Source: Calditrichota bacterium (GTDB taxonomy: Bacteria; Zhuqueibacterota; Zhuqueibacteria; Zhuqueibacterales; Geothermadaptataceae). From it: a DNA stretch of 64,000 nucleotides. The translations under genes and the position numbers were made by a program. The notes beneath the pieces are model-generated. The model saw nothing but the letters and a program-made list of their open reading frames with translations. It made no database searches and was not told where the DNA came from. How positions within the stretch are numbered: the stretch's first letter is position 1; every line of letters begins with the position of its first letter. The stretch is taken from assembly GCA_008501765.1 (NCBI GenBank), contig QQUE01000009.1, forward strand, positions 1 through 64,000, written 5' to 3'. This document shows positions 17,497 to 23,987 of this stretch, piece after piece.

Positions 17497-17752
17497 TCAA
17501 AAACTCCCTTCAGCATGCATGCTTGCAAATTTCAATACAACATCCTACGCACCTGTTTTTTAATTGTTACAATGAAATTCATAATCGCCTATTATTTTTA
17601 TGCCTGCTCTCAAATTCGGATCAGGTTGTTAAAATACTCCTCTGATTTTCTTTGAAAAATAGCCGGGAATATCTTAACCTCGAGCCATGTTAATCATATA
17701 AATTCACTGTTGTCCTGGCTCTGCATCGTATACCTAATATTTTTACAAAAAA

Positions 17753-17781
17753 TTGCATAAATAAATATTCTGCTTGGATAT
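17753..17781 (+). promoter_or_regulatory. Candidate promoter for the threonine-type leader
   Basis: TTGCAT (17753-17758) and GGATAT (17776-17781) are separated by 17 bases. This would place the RNA start about 50 bases before the leader peptide. The match to consensus is modest. Confidence 0.3.
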
Positions 17782-17840: not shown

Positions 17841-17930
17841 ATGAATTTAATTACCACCTCAAAAACTACGATGTGCACAACGATCATTACCATGACTTGT
17901 AATATCTGTTTTTGGCGAGGTGGATTATAG
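17841..17930 (+). CDS. thrL: Threonine/isoleucine-rich leader peptide of a thr-type attenuator
   Basis: The 29-codon frame reads MNLITTSKTTMCTTIITMTC followed by nine more residues and TAG. It has 8 Thr, 4 Ile and 3 Met codons, the same amino-acid bias as the E. coli thr leader, and Thr, Ile and Met are end products of the aspartate pathway encoded just downstream. A Rho-independent terminator follows 27 bases after the stop. The ribosome site is weak, which is the main doubt. The symbol is given by analogy of role and not by homology. Confidence 0.75.
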   Translation: MNLITTSKTTMCTTIITMTCNICFWRGGL

Positions 17931-17991
17931 TATTTAGCATATATTTTTGCAGTCTATAAAAAGCCTTTCCACTCGGAAAGGCTTTTTTTTT
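17854..17991 (+). promoter_or_regulatory. Transcription attenuator of the asd-aspartokinase operon
   Basis: Three alternative pairings are visible. CCACCTC (17854-17860, at Thr codons 5-6) pairs with GAGGTGG (17917-17923), the 1:2 stem. GAGGTGGA (17917-17924) can instead pair, with one bulged G, to TCCACTC (17968-17974), the antiterminator. The terminator is a 13-bp stem (17958-17970 with 17975-17987) ending in nine T from 17983. When charged Thr-tRNA is scarce, a ribosome stalled at the Thr codons would cover segment 1, freeing segment 2 to block the terminator. This is the classical attenuation layout; the mechanism is inferred from the sequence. Confidence 0.75.
17958..17991 (+). terminator. 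Attenuator terminator hairpin
   Basis: A perfect 13-bp stem with loop ACTC is followed by a long T run. It sits between the leader peptide and asd, 40 bases before the asd start. Confidence 0.9.
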
Positions 17992-18030: not shown

Positions 18031-19059
18031 ATGAAAAATAGAATCAAATGCGCTGTACTCGGATCAACAGGCATGGTTGGGCAAGTGTTTTTATCGATGC
18101 TCGCCAACCATCCCTGGTTTGAATTAACGATTATCCTAGCTTCTGACCAGCGCACGGGCAAACAATATAGTCAATCCGCGACCTGGCTTTTACCACAGCC
18201 AATACCGGAAAATATCGCCACATTCACCTTTGCGAAATTTGACATTGATTATTTAAAATCCCAAGGTGTACAAATTATATTTAGCGCACTGCCGGCAGAT
18301 ATTGCCAAAAAAAGTGAAGCTGAACTGCGCGATGCTGGATTCTGGGTGTTTTCCAATGCCAGCGCCTTTCGTTACGAAGAGAATGTGCCAATACTAATCC
18401 CGGAAGTAAATCCCGAGGCGCTCAAATCGATAGAGAGTCAGGGATATCCGGAGAAGGGATTTATTATTACCAATTCCAACTGTACAACTGCGGGATTGGC
18501 AGTGGCTTTAGCGCCCTTGCGGCAATTTCAGATAAAGAAAATATTCGTTTCAACGTATCAAGCTATTTCGGGTGCAGGCTATCCTGGATTGTCGGCGCTG
18601 GATATTATTGGAAATGCGATTCCATTTATTGGCGGCGAGGAAGAAAAAGTTATCCTCGAGAGCAAGCAAATTCTCGGAATCGATGCCGAAGTCTATCCGT
18701 CCTGTGTGCGTATCCCGGTGAAATTTGGTCATCTTGAGTCTGTATTATTGGATTTCGCGAATCCTGTTTCCACTGAAGATATTTTGCAGGCATGGAAAAA
18801 CTTCGGTCTGAACAAACCACCATTGCCAAATGCGCCTCACGCACCCGTGGTTTATGATCCGGCACCCGATTTTCCACAGCCTAAAATTGCTTTTAACGGC
18901 GACCCCACAGGTATGCAGGTTTTTACTGGCCGTCTGCGTCAACAGCATACAATGTTTGGTTTCTTTTTGCTGGCCAACAATATTGTGCGCGGCGCCGCAG
19001 GGGGATCAATTATTAACGCGGAATCTTTCATCTTTCAATACCAAAGGCATTTATTATGA
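18031..19059 (+). CDS. asd: Aspartate-semialdehyde dehydrogenase
   Basis: The 342-residue enzyme reduces aspartyl-4-phosphate to aspartate semialdehyde with NADPH (EC 1.2.1.11), the second step towards threonine, methionine, isoleucine and lysine. The N-terminal nucleotide-binding loop is LGSTGMVGQVF (residues 10-20). Cys151 in NSNCTTAGLA is the active-site nucleophile and His234 in RIPVKFGHLES the likely acid/base. The NCTTAGL context is that of the archaeal/yeast-type branch. AGGA precedes the ATG. Its stop overlaps the aspartokinase start as ATGA, so the two are translationally coupled, and both lie behind the threonine-type attenuator. Confidence 0.95.
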   Translation: MKNRIKCAVLGSTGMVGQVFLSMLANHPWFELTIILASDQRTGKQYSQSATWLLPQPIPENIATFTFAKFDIDYLKSQGVQIIFSALPADIAKKSEAELRDAGFWVFSNASAFRYEENVPILIPEVNPEALKSIESQGYPEKGFIITNSNCTTAGLAVALAPLRQFQIKKIFVSTYQAISGAGYPGLSALDIIGNAIPFIGGEEEKVILESKQILGIDAEVYPSCVRIPVKFGHLESVLLDFANPVSTEDILQAWKNFGLNKPPLPNAPHAPVVYDPAPDFPQPKIAFNGDPTGMQVFTGRLRQQHTMFGFFLLANNIVRGAAGGSIINAESFIFQYQRHLL

Positions 19060-20483
19060 ATAAGAGAGTTATTAAAATCGGTGGATCCAACTTAAAATCT
19101 AAAGCAGACATCGGTAAAATTATCGATGTCATAAGGTACTACAATCAGCCCCTGGTTATCGTAGTTTCTGCCTGGTATGGAATCACTGACCGCTTGCAAG
19201 AAACGATGGCCAGAGCTGCTGGTGACCGCACTGTCATCAGCGATTTGAGCACCTACCTTACAACGCTGAAACATGAAATTATCCATCAATATATCGATCT
19301 GCCAAATGAGAGGGAACGTGCTGTCAATAAAATAAATGTTCGGGTCGATGAACTCGCAAAATATCTGAAGGGCGTCCACTATCTCGGTGAAGCGCCAGAT
19401 TTCACTGAAGATATGGTACTCAGTTTTGGCGAAAGGCTTTCCGCGCTGTTGCTGGAGTCAATTTTAACTTCGGCGGGTATTGCCTGCGAGAAAGTGACTC
19501 CAGAGGAAATGGGCCTTATTACCGATGGGCGGTTCGGCAATGCCCGTGTTGATTTTGAACGTGCACAACCGCTGGTGAGAGCACGGCTCAACAATGATGT
19601 TATAAATATTGTCCCGGGTTTTTACGGGGTCTCGCGCGACGATGGCCGGGTCACATTATTGGGACGTGGTGGCAGCGATTATACAGCAGCAGCCATTGCG
19701 CGCTGCATCGACGCGCCTTCGCTCGATACATGGAAAGATGTGAGCGGCTTTTTGAGCGCAGATCCGAAAATTATCGGTGAACCCCGTGTCATCGAACATC
19801 TCACTTATCGTGAAGCGGCCGAGCTCGCCTATTTTGGCGCTACAATTCTGCATCCGATGACTGTTGAACCGCTGATTGACGCCAATATTCCTGTGCGAAT
19901 TTTCAACATTAACGACGTTCGCGGCATGCATGGTTCCCATTCGATAATTCATAATAATGAACCGCATGAAAGCGGTGAAGTCAAAAGTGTGACATACACG
20001 GATGATGTGGCCTTGTTAAAAATCTCTGGCCCGGGCATTGGGATAAATCCGGGGATAATTGGCAAAATAACGCACAAATTTGATGAAGATGAAATTAATA
20101 TCAAGTCGATTTTCACTTCCCAAACTTCGATTAATTTTCTCGTTTCCCGGGAAAATTTACAAAATAGTGAAAAACTCATTTTATCGCTGGGCTTGCCAAG
20201 CATCCAGAAAATAACCGCGCTGGATGATATCTCACTCGTCGCCCTCGTCGGCGAAGGCATTGCAGAACATCCGGAAATTACCAACCAGGTTTTGCGGGCA
20301 TTTATCAATCGCAATATCAACCTGCAACTGGTTTCAATCGGAGCTTCTTCGGCAGCCGCTTACTTTATTGTCTCTGCAGCCGAATGCTTTCGTGCAGTTT
20401 CTGCAATACATGACGATATTTTTTCTGAGGCCGTGCCAATAAATGAAAATTTCACAATTGGATTGCTAACGCATCAAATATAA
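19056..20483 (+). CDS. lysC: Aspartate kinase with two C-terminal ACT domains
   Basis: The 475-residue enzyme phosphorylates aspartate (EC 2.7.2.4), the first step of the pathway. The kinase domain (1-300) has KIGGSNL near residue 7 in place of the usual KFGGTS, and LGRGGSDYTAAAIA, TWKDVSGFLSADP and ELAYFGATILHP as expected. Two ACT domains follow, one starting at about 310 (VALLKISGPGI) and one at about 395 (ISLVALVGEGIA, then NINLQLVSIGASS). These normally bind threonine or lysine for feedback inhibition. There is no homoserine dehydrogenase domain, so it is not a ThrA fusion, although it resembles the ThrA kinase half. The leader upstream suggests a threonine-controlled isoenzyme. The symbol is the generic one for a monofunctional enzyme. 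Confidence 0.92.
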   Translation: MNKRVIKIGGSNLKSKADIGKIIDVIRYYNQPLVIVVSAWYGITDRLQETMARAAGDRTVISDLSTYLTTLKHEIIHQYIDLPNERERAVNKINVRVDELAKYLKGVHYLGEAPDFTEDMVLSFGERLSALLLESILTSAGIACEKVTPEEMGLITDGRFGNARVDFERAQPLVRARLNNDVINIVPGFYGVSRDDGRVTLLGRGGSDYTAAAIARCIDAPSLDTWKDVSGFLSADPKIIGEPRVIEHLTYREAAELAYFGATILHPMTVEPLIDANIPVRIFNINDVRGMHGSHSIIHNNEPHESGEVKSVTYTDDVALLKISGPGIGINPGIIGKITHKFDEDEINIKSIFTSQTSINFLVSRENLQNSEKLILSLGLPSIQKITALDDISLVALVGEGIAEHPEITNQVLRAFINRNINLQLVSIGASSAAAYFIVSAAECFRAVSAIHDDIFSEAVPINENFTIGLLTHQI

Positions 20484-22475: not shown

Positions 22476-23987
22476 ATGCAATTTAATATTGAAGAAATAC
22501 TACTGATCGCAAAAAAAATTGAAAACAATGGCTATCATTTTTATACGGCGGCAGCCGAAGCCAACGAAGAGCATCGTGAGTGGTTGACTGAGCTGGCGCA
22601 GGAAGAAATCGGCCACGAAAGTGCAATCGACGATTTCGCCCGCTCTTTTGTCGCTCCGCAAGATGATCCGGATGACCCGGACAACCTGGTATTGCTCTAC
22701 CTGCATTCCATCGCCGACAGCCTCATTTTTAGCGCTGGTCAGGATCCGCGCACATTCTTCAACAAGGAAGTCACGATCGATGAAATAATCGAAGATGGAT
22801 TGCGCCGCGAACACGAAGCCGTGGCTTATTATTCCGCGCTAAAAGACGTGATGGTTGATGAAGATGCAAAAGCGCAGGTCGATCTCCTGGTAAAAGAAGA
22901 AAAAAACCATATTGCCTGGCTGCGTCGAAAACAGGAAGAAATCGAAAACGAGAGAACACAACAAAATAAAGAAAAAATCTACGAGCTCATAATCATCGGG
23001 GCTGGGCCGGGTGGAATCAGCATGGCTGCGGAGGCCATTTCTGCCGGCATCGAAAGCGAAAAAATTCTCATTCTCGAGGGCGCCCCTAAATCTTCGTGGA
23101 TGATTCGCAAACTCTATCCGAATAAACATCTGGTGACCACCAGCTACAAGGGAGAATCGACGCCAAGCAAAGGCGTGTTGAAAATGCGGGATATGAGCAA
23201 AGAAAGCATTGTGCAGATGTTATCGGACGCAGTCGAAGATTTCGGCATAAATATCGTTTATAATTGCCCCGTTTCCGCCGTCGATAAAAAAGATGGACTT
23301 TTCAGTTTTCAGGGAAAAGATGGCACTTACAAGGCAAAATATGGTGTAATTTCCATCGGAATTTTCGGCAGACCCAATCGCCCGGACTATACAATTCATC
23401 CTGAAATTGAAGACCGTGTGCGTTTCGAAATCGACGTGGTAAATGTCAGAAATTCAAAAGTTTTAGTTGTGGGTGGTGGAGATACAGCTGCTGAGTTTAT
23501 CCAGGAATTACTCAAATTCGGTAATAACATCACCTTGTCCTGCCGGGAAAAAAATTTTGAAATGATGAATAATACCAACCGGCGAAAAGTTGAAACCGCC
23601 AAAGTTGCAAAGTCAATTCAGGTGCTGGCCGGGAGTGATATTTCCGAAATTTCTGCCCACAACGACGGCATTCAGGTTTTCTTTAAAAATGAAAATCCTG
23701 AAGAAATGATTTTTGATTATATTATTTATGCCCTCGGCGGCACCACAGCGAAGAAATTGCTAAATATCACTGGAATTTTTATGCGCGGAAAAAGGCCCAC
23801 CTTGAGTGCGGCCAACGAGAGTAATATTCCGGGGCTGTATCTCACTGGAGATCTCGCAGCGCGCAGTGAAATCGGTACGATTGCCGCCGCGTTTAATTCA
23901 TCATTTTATGCAGCGCAGGATTTGGTGCAAAAGTATTTCCCGCAGCTTAGCGCAAAGGCGGAATCTTCGTCACCAAAACAAAGTTAA
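22476..23987 (+). CDS. Fusion of a rubrerythrin-like ferritin domain and an FAD/NAD(P) reductase
   Basis: The 503-residue product joins two redox domains. Residues 1-150 are a ferritin-like four-helix bundle with two carboxylate/histidine sets, E16 and E44-x-x-H47, then E112/E114 and E142-x-x-H145, the diiron ligands of rubrerythrin-type peroxidases. Residues 169-490 are a pyridine-nucleotide-disulfide-reductase fold with GAGPGG (175-180) for FAD and GGGDTA for NAD(P). There is no CxxC, so it resembles the YpdA/thioredoxin-reductase-like branch without the dithiol. A single chain could thus take electrons from NAD(P)H to a diiron peroxidase, which is inference. AGGAGAA before ATG 22476 fixes the start; longer upstream reading lacks a ribosome site. 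Confidence 0.82.
   Translation: MQFNIEEILLIAKKIENNGYHFYTAAAEANEEHREWLTELAQEEIGHESAIDDFARSFVAPQDDPDDPDNLVLLYLHSIADSLIFSAGQDPRTFFNKEVTIDEIIEDGLRREHEAVAYYSALKDVMVDEDAKAQVDLLVKEEKNHIAWLRRKQEEIENERTQQNKEKIYELIIIGAGPGGISMAAEAISAGIESEKILILEGAPKSSWMIRKLYPNKHLVTTSYKGESTPSKGVLKMRDMSKESIVQMLSDAVEDFGINIVYNCPVSAVDKKDGLFSFQGKDGTYKAKYGVISIGIFGRPNRPDYTIHPEIEDRVRFEIDVVNVRNSKVLVVGGGDTAAEFIQELLKFGNNITLSCREKNFEMMNNTNRRKVETAKVAKSIQVLAGSDISEISAHNDGIQVFFKNENPEEMIFDYIIYALGGTTAKKLLNITGIFMRGKRPTLSAANESNIPGLYLTGDLAARSEIGTIAAAFNSSFYAAQDLVQKYFPQLSAKAESSSPKQS

Follow-up and report, generated by a model that had tools for sequence, protein, structure and literature searches.

A Predicted Threonine-Rich Leader-Peptide Attenuator Upstream of asd and Aspartokinase in a Calditrichota Bacterium and Its Relatives

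The attenuator of the Escherichia coli thr operon carries a threonine-rich reading frame, thrL. The asd gene, which encodes aspartate-semialdehyde dehydrogenase, feeds the synthesis of Thr, Met, Lys and Ile, and the control of Lys and Met genes is usually credited to riboswitches. Eight ACC codons are described for thrL (PMC1183508). An older survey states that, until it added a Firmicutes case, leader peptides had been known from no groups other than Proteobacteria and Actinobacteria (PMC2965389). In Flavobacterium psychrophilum, ‘strong clues’ to leader-peptide attenuation upstream of amino-acid operons have been described, and conserved structured 5′ elements of this species lack Rfam matches; pheA and hisG are named among the genes with structured 5′ elements (PMC9723704). 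The initial annotation of the locus described here called attenuation of this kind best known from Proteobacteria; the contrast is weaker than this implies, because leader-peptide attenuation is reported in F. psychrophilum (PMC9723704).

We analyzed a stretch of 64,000 nucleotides from a Calditrichota bacterium, called the window here. A short open frame in it is followed by an intrinsic terminator and the genes asd and aspartokinase (Table 1). From sequence comparison, we consider it very likely that this arrangement is a ribosome-mediated transcription attenuator controlling asd–aspartokinase, the trunk genes of the aspartate pathway. It shares with the E. coli thr attenuator a short Thr-rich frame, mutually exclusive helices, an intrinsic terminator and a downstream aspartokinase. 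Unlike in the E. coli thr operon, the leader stands before asd and a monofunctional aspartokinase, and not before thrABC. Unlike in thrL, there is an excess of Met and, when relatives are included, of Lys codons but none of Ile codons, and the Thr codons of the window leader are mixed (ACC, ACT, ACG and ACA).

The genome (5.9 Mb in 21 contigs, 98.9% complete) had been taken to be of the FCB type. This is supported by 150 matches to the T9SS C-terminal domain, which was matched in two of 14 control genomes. The assignment of the operon as asd–aspartokinase was confirmed by TIGR00978 and by aspartate-kinase models. The aspartokinase start overlaps the asd stop, and asd begins about 40 nt 3′ of the hairpin. 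Elsewhere in the window (22476–23987), a single frame joins a Rubrerythrin-like N-terminal stretch, below the cut-off, to a pyridine-nucleotide-disulphide oxidoreductase domain.

The leader frame of 29 codons, with 8 Thr, 4 Ile and 3 Met codons (start included), is present as first described. A weak promoter-like match places a putative start site about 60 nt 5′ of the leader; the consensus scan finds 27 sites of such strength in 7 kb versus 17 in shuffles. By eye, a TTTACA is also seen upstream of the leader in the same-genus genome G001, and no clear Shine–Dalgarno sequence is seen before the ATG of the window leader.

Table 1. Coordinates of the features at the locus, numbered from the first letter of the window.
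Feature	Position	Strand	Description and evidence
Promoter-like site, weak	17742..17771	+	TTTACA, spacer 16-18; consensus scan only, 9/12 matches
Leader peptide frame	17841..17930	+	MNLITTSKTTMCTTIITMTCNICFWRGGL, stop TAG at 17928-17930; open frame, counterparts in relatives, codon excess
Control region, codons 4 to 19	17850..17897	+	Thr x8, Ile x3, Met x2
Segment 1	17854..17865	+	CCACCTCAAAAA, partner is 17909-17923; fold and helix scoring
Segment 2	17909..17930	+	TTTTTGGCGAGGTGGATTATAG, partner is segment 1 or, alternatively, segment 3; joint p 0.008
Segment 3	17954..17971	+	CTATAA (17954-17959) with TTATAG; GCCTTtCCA (17963-17971) with TGGcGAGGT; predicted antiterminator
Intrinsic terminator (segments 3 and 4)	17958..17991	+	13-bp stem 17958-17987, 4-nt loop, T-run; -17.4 kcal/mol
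asd, aspartate-semialdehyde dehydrogenase (asd_EA type)	18031..19059	+	TIGR00978, 350 bits, over cut-off
Monofunctional aspartokinase, two ACT domains	19056..20483	+	PF00696, PF22468, PF13840; TIGR00657 over cut-off

The whole leader folds with an energy of −44.2 kcal/mol versus −25.6 kcal/mol in dinucleotide shuffles (z −5.2). Three pairings had been proposed. The pairing of CCACCTC (17854–17860) with GAGGTGG (17917–17923) between segments 1 and 2 (1:2) was confirmed, with p 0.030 when scored alone, and the terminator stem (3:4) with its T-run is in place. The proposed overlap of segment 1 with the first Thr codons is also borne out. For the remaining pairing, GAGGTGGA with TCCACTC, a core of 6 bp (GGTGGA/TCCACT) is present, but it is probably not the main antiterminator register. 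It reaches just the last 3 of the 13 bases in the terminator 5′ arm and would thus exclude the terminator poorly. Before segment 4 is made, the window leader prefers to pair segments 2 and 3 (2:3) as TGGcGAGGT/GCCTTtCCA plus TTATAG/CTATAA, at −16.4 kcal/mol. An equivalent register recurs in both genus relatives, G001 and G002. The 2:3 helix of the window leader has a p of 0.16 by itself. Completion of segment 4 makes the terminator the more stable fold of the window leader, as it is in known attenuators, and the switch would therefore have to be kinetic.

These elements suggest the following mechanism. As RNA polymerase proceeds along the leader, a ribosome would be translating the 29-codon peptide. 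With an ample supply of Thr (and of Met and Lys, as the comparison of relatives suggests), the ribosome would reach the stop codon at 17928–17930 and cover segment 2. The 3:4 terminator at 17958–17987 would then form, and asd–aspartokinase would be off. On a leader without a ribosome, 1:2 and 3:4 would form, and transcription would stop as well. Lack of charging of a control tRNA would stall the ribosome in codons 4–19, where it would cover segment 1 and leave segment 2 free. Free segment 2 would pair with segment 3 in the TGGcGAGGT/GCCTTtCCA plus TTATAG/CTATAA register, and transcription would continue. The frame, the codon excess, the three pairings, the terminator and the conserved design are read directly in the DNA; co-transcriptional switching, stalling and the amino acids relevant in the cell are what we infer from them.

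The asd gene was sought in 82 genomes of the phylum, of which 57 gave a match and 48 were usable. A leader frame and then a terminator precede asd in nine of the 48: the three genomes of the genus and six of the eight readable loci of f8, another family of the same class (G045, G036, G049, G042, G058 and G047). A comparison of the region upstream of asd in relatives had been proposed as a check, and its outcome was mixed. All three same-genus genomes have the leader, and no such leader was found in 10 more distant ones that keep asd followed by aspartokinase. Aspartokinase directly follows asd in 13 of the 48 genomes, and 10 of these 13 have no such leader. An intrinsic terminator lies between leader and first gene in all nine cases. 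The distance from the terminator to the asd match is 26–56 nt in eight of them and 115 nt in G002.

The genus leaders all stand before asd–aspartokinase and have different sequences and the same anatomy. Their peptides are MNLITTSKTTMCTTIITMTCNICFWRGGL in the window, MKIKSTTKTMKMTMMKTMTCTCGFWKGGL in G001 and MIKSIIKTTKTTMMTTTCKCRFRKGGL in G002; the latter two end in FWKGGL and FRKGGL, respectively. Of the 29 codons of the G001 frame, 7 encode Thr and another 7, start included, encode Met. Terminators are present before asd in G001 and G002 too. The six f8 leaders look like an independent version of the design. They resemble those of the genus in their Thr/Lys/Met-rich frame, their 1:2, 2:3 and 3:4 pairings and a terminator 26–56 nt before the asd match. 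Unlike the genus leaders, they are richer in Lys, and their segments are built on GGGCTT/AAGCCC (AGGCTTGG/CCAAGCCT in G049), not on GGCGAGGT/GCCTTTCC. No aspartokinase was found after asd in the six genomes, of which G042 and G047 are readable for only 130 and 244 nt downstream. The idea that the f8 leaders are Lys-rich owing to a dapB gene after asd was not borne out by the genes downstream. The gene after asd in G036 has only a GFO_IDH_MocA C-terminal domain in Pfam, and neither this gene nor its counterpart in G045 has an NCBIfam match. In G049, G058 and the f8 genome G023, asd seems to stand alone.

Other loci show parts of this layout. G023 has a weak hairpin and no such leader frame. In G061 (f8; L112:1–158), the terminator is kept before asd, and the stretch with the leader start is missing relative to its near relative G042; this could be attenuator decay or an assembly error in a draft genome with 158 nt available. 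In the f6 genomes G033 (L142 / L008) and G057 (L013), terminator hairpins precede asd–aspartokinase, with no recognizable leader frame. In G057, the terminator arm contains AGGCCCA, with which TGGGCTT could pair as judged by eye, and this locus may therefore have an attenuator of a different kind. On visual inspection, no comparable leader was seen before three asd genes from Spirochaetia (56, 55 and 54% identical). A quick asd tree places the genus together with Spirochaetia and one Acidobacteria-labelled MAG, beside a clade of f6, f8 and f10. The presence of the leader requires 5 changes on this tree, at least 3 of them on well supported branches, and a single origin with losses and two origins are thus both compatible with it.

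As background for codon usage, we took the 16,094 residues of 31 long frames in the window, for the f8 leaders too. Thr accounts for 8/28 in the window leader versus 1.6 expected (p 1.3e-4), and for 8/19 in its control region versus 3.0 expected from dinucleotide shuffles (p 0.0013). Thr is the only single amino acid significant in the shuffle test of this leader. For the window leader alone, Met (p 0.10–0.12), Ile (0.14) and Lys (0.70–0.77) are not significant. The three genus leaders together (82 codons) contain 22 Thr (p 9e-10), 9 Met (3e-5), 12 Lys (1e-3), 8 Ile (0.23) and 7 Cys (8e-5) codons. The f8 leaders (142 codons) contain 24 Lys (3e-7), 19 Thr (5e-4), 8 Met (6e-3) and 8 Ile (0.81). 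In the nine control regions, dinucleotide shuffles predict 15.1 Thr, 6.3 Met and 18.4 Lys codons, and 38, 16 and 28 are observed, each with p 3e-4, the smallest value possible in the test. Ile (10 vs 9.2, p 0.45) and Cys (4 vs 2.4, p 0.19) are near expectation there. The nine frames are enriched in codons for products of the pathway whose biosynthetic gene or operon they precede.

It is possible but doubtful that the leader is a simple Thr (or Thr/Ile) attenuator like E. coli thrL, in which chance or base composition would explain the Met and Lys codons. The strongest excess is indeed that of Thr, and among pathway products the window alone is clearly significant for Thr only. Such a reading does not account for the Met count of the genus, the Met and Lys counts of the nine leaders against shuffles, or the 7 Thr and 7 Met of G001, and Ile is at expectation. 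The purely ‘thr-type’ label of the initial annotation is too narrow, with Met at 9/82 in the genus and Lys also in excess, and Ile not. Putative sensing of Thr by the leader is well supported. Predicted sensing of Met and Lys is supported too, by the set of nine and not by the window leader, and it makes sense because asd feeds all of these branches. In the genus leaders, which have Cys in excess, two or three Cys residues lie just ahead of the conserved F[WR][KR]GGL end; a sulfur-amino-acid signal and an RNA constraint are candidate meanings.

The position of the control codons was also considered. In the window leader, 15 nt separate the end of the last Thr codon from segment 2. If a stalled ribosome is taken to cover 12 nt downstream, Thr, Met and Lys codons make up 82 of the 129 codons at which stalling keeps segment 2 accessible, versus 12 of 95 elsewhere (p 3e-15), with the codon set and segment-2 positions chosen after seeing the data and a G-rich segment 2 that by itself disfavors these codons. 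The control codons are placed such that a ribosome stalled on them would mask segment 1 and free segment 2.

Alternative pairing of segment 2 was scored jointly across the nine leaders. The score demands contiguous helices of a single segment 2 with segment 1 on the one hand and with the terminator 5′ arm on the other, and it was compared with dinucleotide shuffles. The joint p values are 0.008 (window), 0.002, 0.064 (G002), 0.004, 0.016, 0.005, 0.011, 0.005 and 0.002; eight of the nine are thus at or below 0.016. Fisher's method over the nine gives 1.7e-11, with the genomes treated as independent, which they are not fully. An earlier RNAduplex test, in which the ribosome footprint was fixed, gave mostly nonsignificant values (1:2 p 0.04–0.98; 2:3 p 0.02–0.93); in several f8 leaders, the reason was that this footprint truncated segment 2. 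Contiguous-helix scoring replaced that test, and the segment definition was chosen afterwards. The joint p values are therefore exploratory. Taken by itself, the 2:3 helix of G002 does not exceed shuffles (p 0.61). The joint solution for G049 has a 1:2 helix of only 4 bp, and the best 1:2 helix adjoins the 2:3 helix without overlapping it. An antiterminator-type fold forms in G001 from GGAAAGGT/GCCTTTCC plus ATAGTCT/AGACTAT (−19.2 kcal/mol), and G002 has one of the same layout (−12.8 kcal/mol). In a three-row DNA alignment of the genus leaders, the G002 terminator was misplaced, and this alignment was excluded from pair counts.

The frame could instead encode a functional small protein, for example a Cys-rich one with CxC near its end, with the hairpin as its terminator and a separate downstream promoter for asd. 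The Cys excess of the genus (7/82, p 8e-5) and the conserved C-terminus would fit such a protein. However, what the N-terminal parts share is composition and not sequence, the conserved end falls together with segment 2, the leader peptide has no match in Pfam or NCBIfam, and the terminator-to-asd gap is as short as given above in eight of nine leaders. We regard this explanation as improbable. A riboswitch or T-box-like element overlapping a spurious frame is highly improbable. Riboswitches have the same layout, with a structured leader and a terminator preceding an amino-acid operon, but no Rfam family, and with it no known amino-acid riboswitch or T-box family, reaches the gathering cut-off in the window. 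At a lax threshold on the leader stretch, the best hit is Phe_leader (29.5 bits vs 55), and RF00506 Thr_leader reaches 19.8 of the 55 bits required, so that the leader is not a member. In addition, the frame is open and rich in Thr, Met and Lys in all nine genomes although the RNA sequence differs. A plain terminator with spurious pairings and no translation-linked regulation, which the frameless hairpins of G033 and G057 and the weak outcome of the first pairing test might suggest, is very improbable, as leader composition, control-codon position and joint pairing coincide in nine genomes.

Other amino-acid operons were inspected for comparable leaders. A Thr-rich frame with an intrinsic terminator was not found before f8 thrA–thrC or before genus hom, thrC or ilvB. 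In G036 and G045 (L175:600–624 and L176:1490–1514), terminator-like hairpins AGGCACAGCC...GGTGTGCC with a T-run lie upstream of thrA–thrC, with no Thr-rich frame in view. In the genome of the window (G000), ilvD–ilvB–ilvN is preceded by a 75-codon frame rich in Ile, Leu and Val (L196:612–839; G000:C3:243911–244135), as it is in G001 (G001:C96:14143–14367), with 56% identity between the two. Within about 10 nt, this frame is followed by a long-loop hairpin, AGAAGCGAATCC / GGAATCGCTTCT, with a C-/A-rich loop of about 40 nt and no T-run. This layout recurs before ilvB in G049, where the frame has 64 codons (L201:1652–1846). Among 63 genomes of the class, the ilv peptide has a clear match only in G000 and G001. 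Frame and hairpin could be a candidate ilv leader acting through Rho or translation.

Taking the asd leaders together, we see an even chance that one leader peptide reads tRNA charging for Thr, Met and Lys and so sets the whole aspartate-family flux. On this reading, at least two lineages of an FCB phylum would have retained the design or evolved it anew, with the codon mix shifted to Thr/Met where aspartokinase follows and to more Lys where asd stands without it. If this is true, one small peptide would integrate several end products of a branched pathway. With nine leaders for comparison, the set described here carries predicted leader-peptide attenuation into an FCB lineage that is uncultured.

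In the open-access literature, we found no description of an attenuator that reads Met or Lys codons, nor of one before asd in this bacterial group; Met and Lys would therefore be unusual as control codons. As in the F. psychrophilum cases, a ribosome-mediated design is proposed here in an FCB bacterium for an element with no Rfam match. Unlike those cases, the leaders described here belong to another lineage and to other operons, and asd/aspartokinase is not among the operons named in the excerpts of that report (PMC9723704). Compared with the known systems, the design itself is classic, and it is probably the bacterial group and the mix of amino acids sensed that are new.
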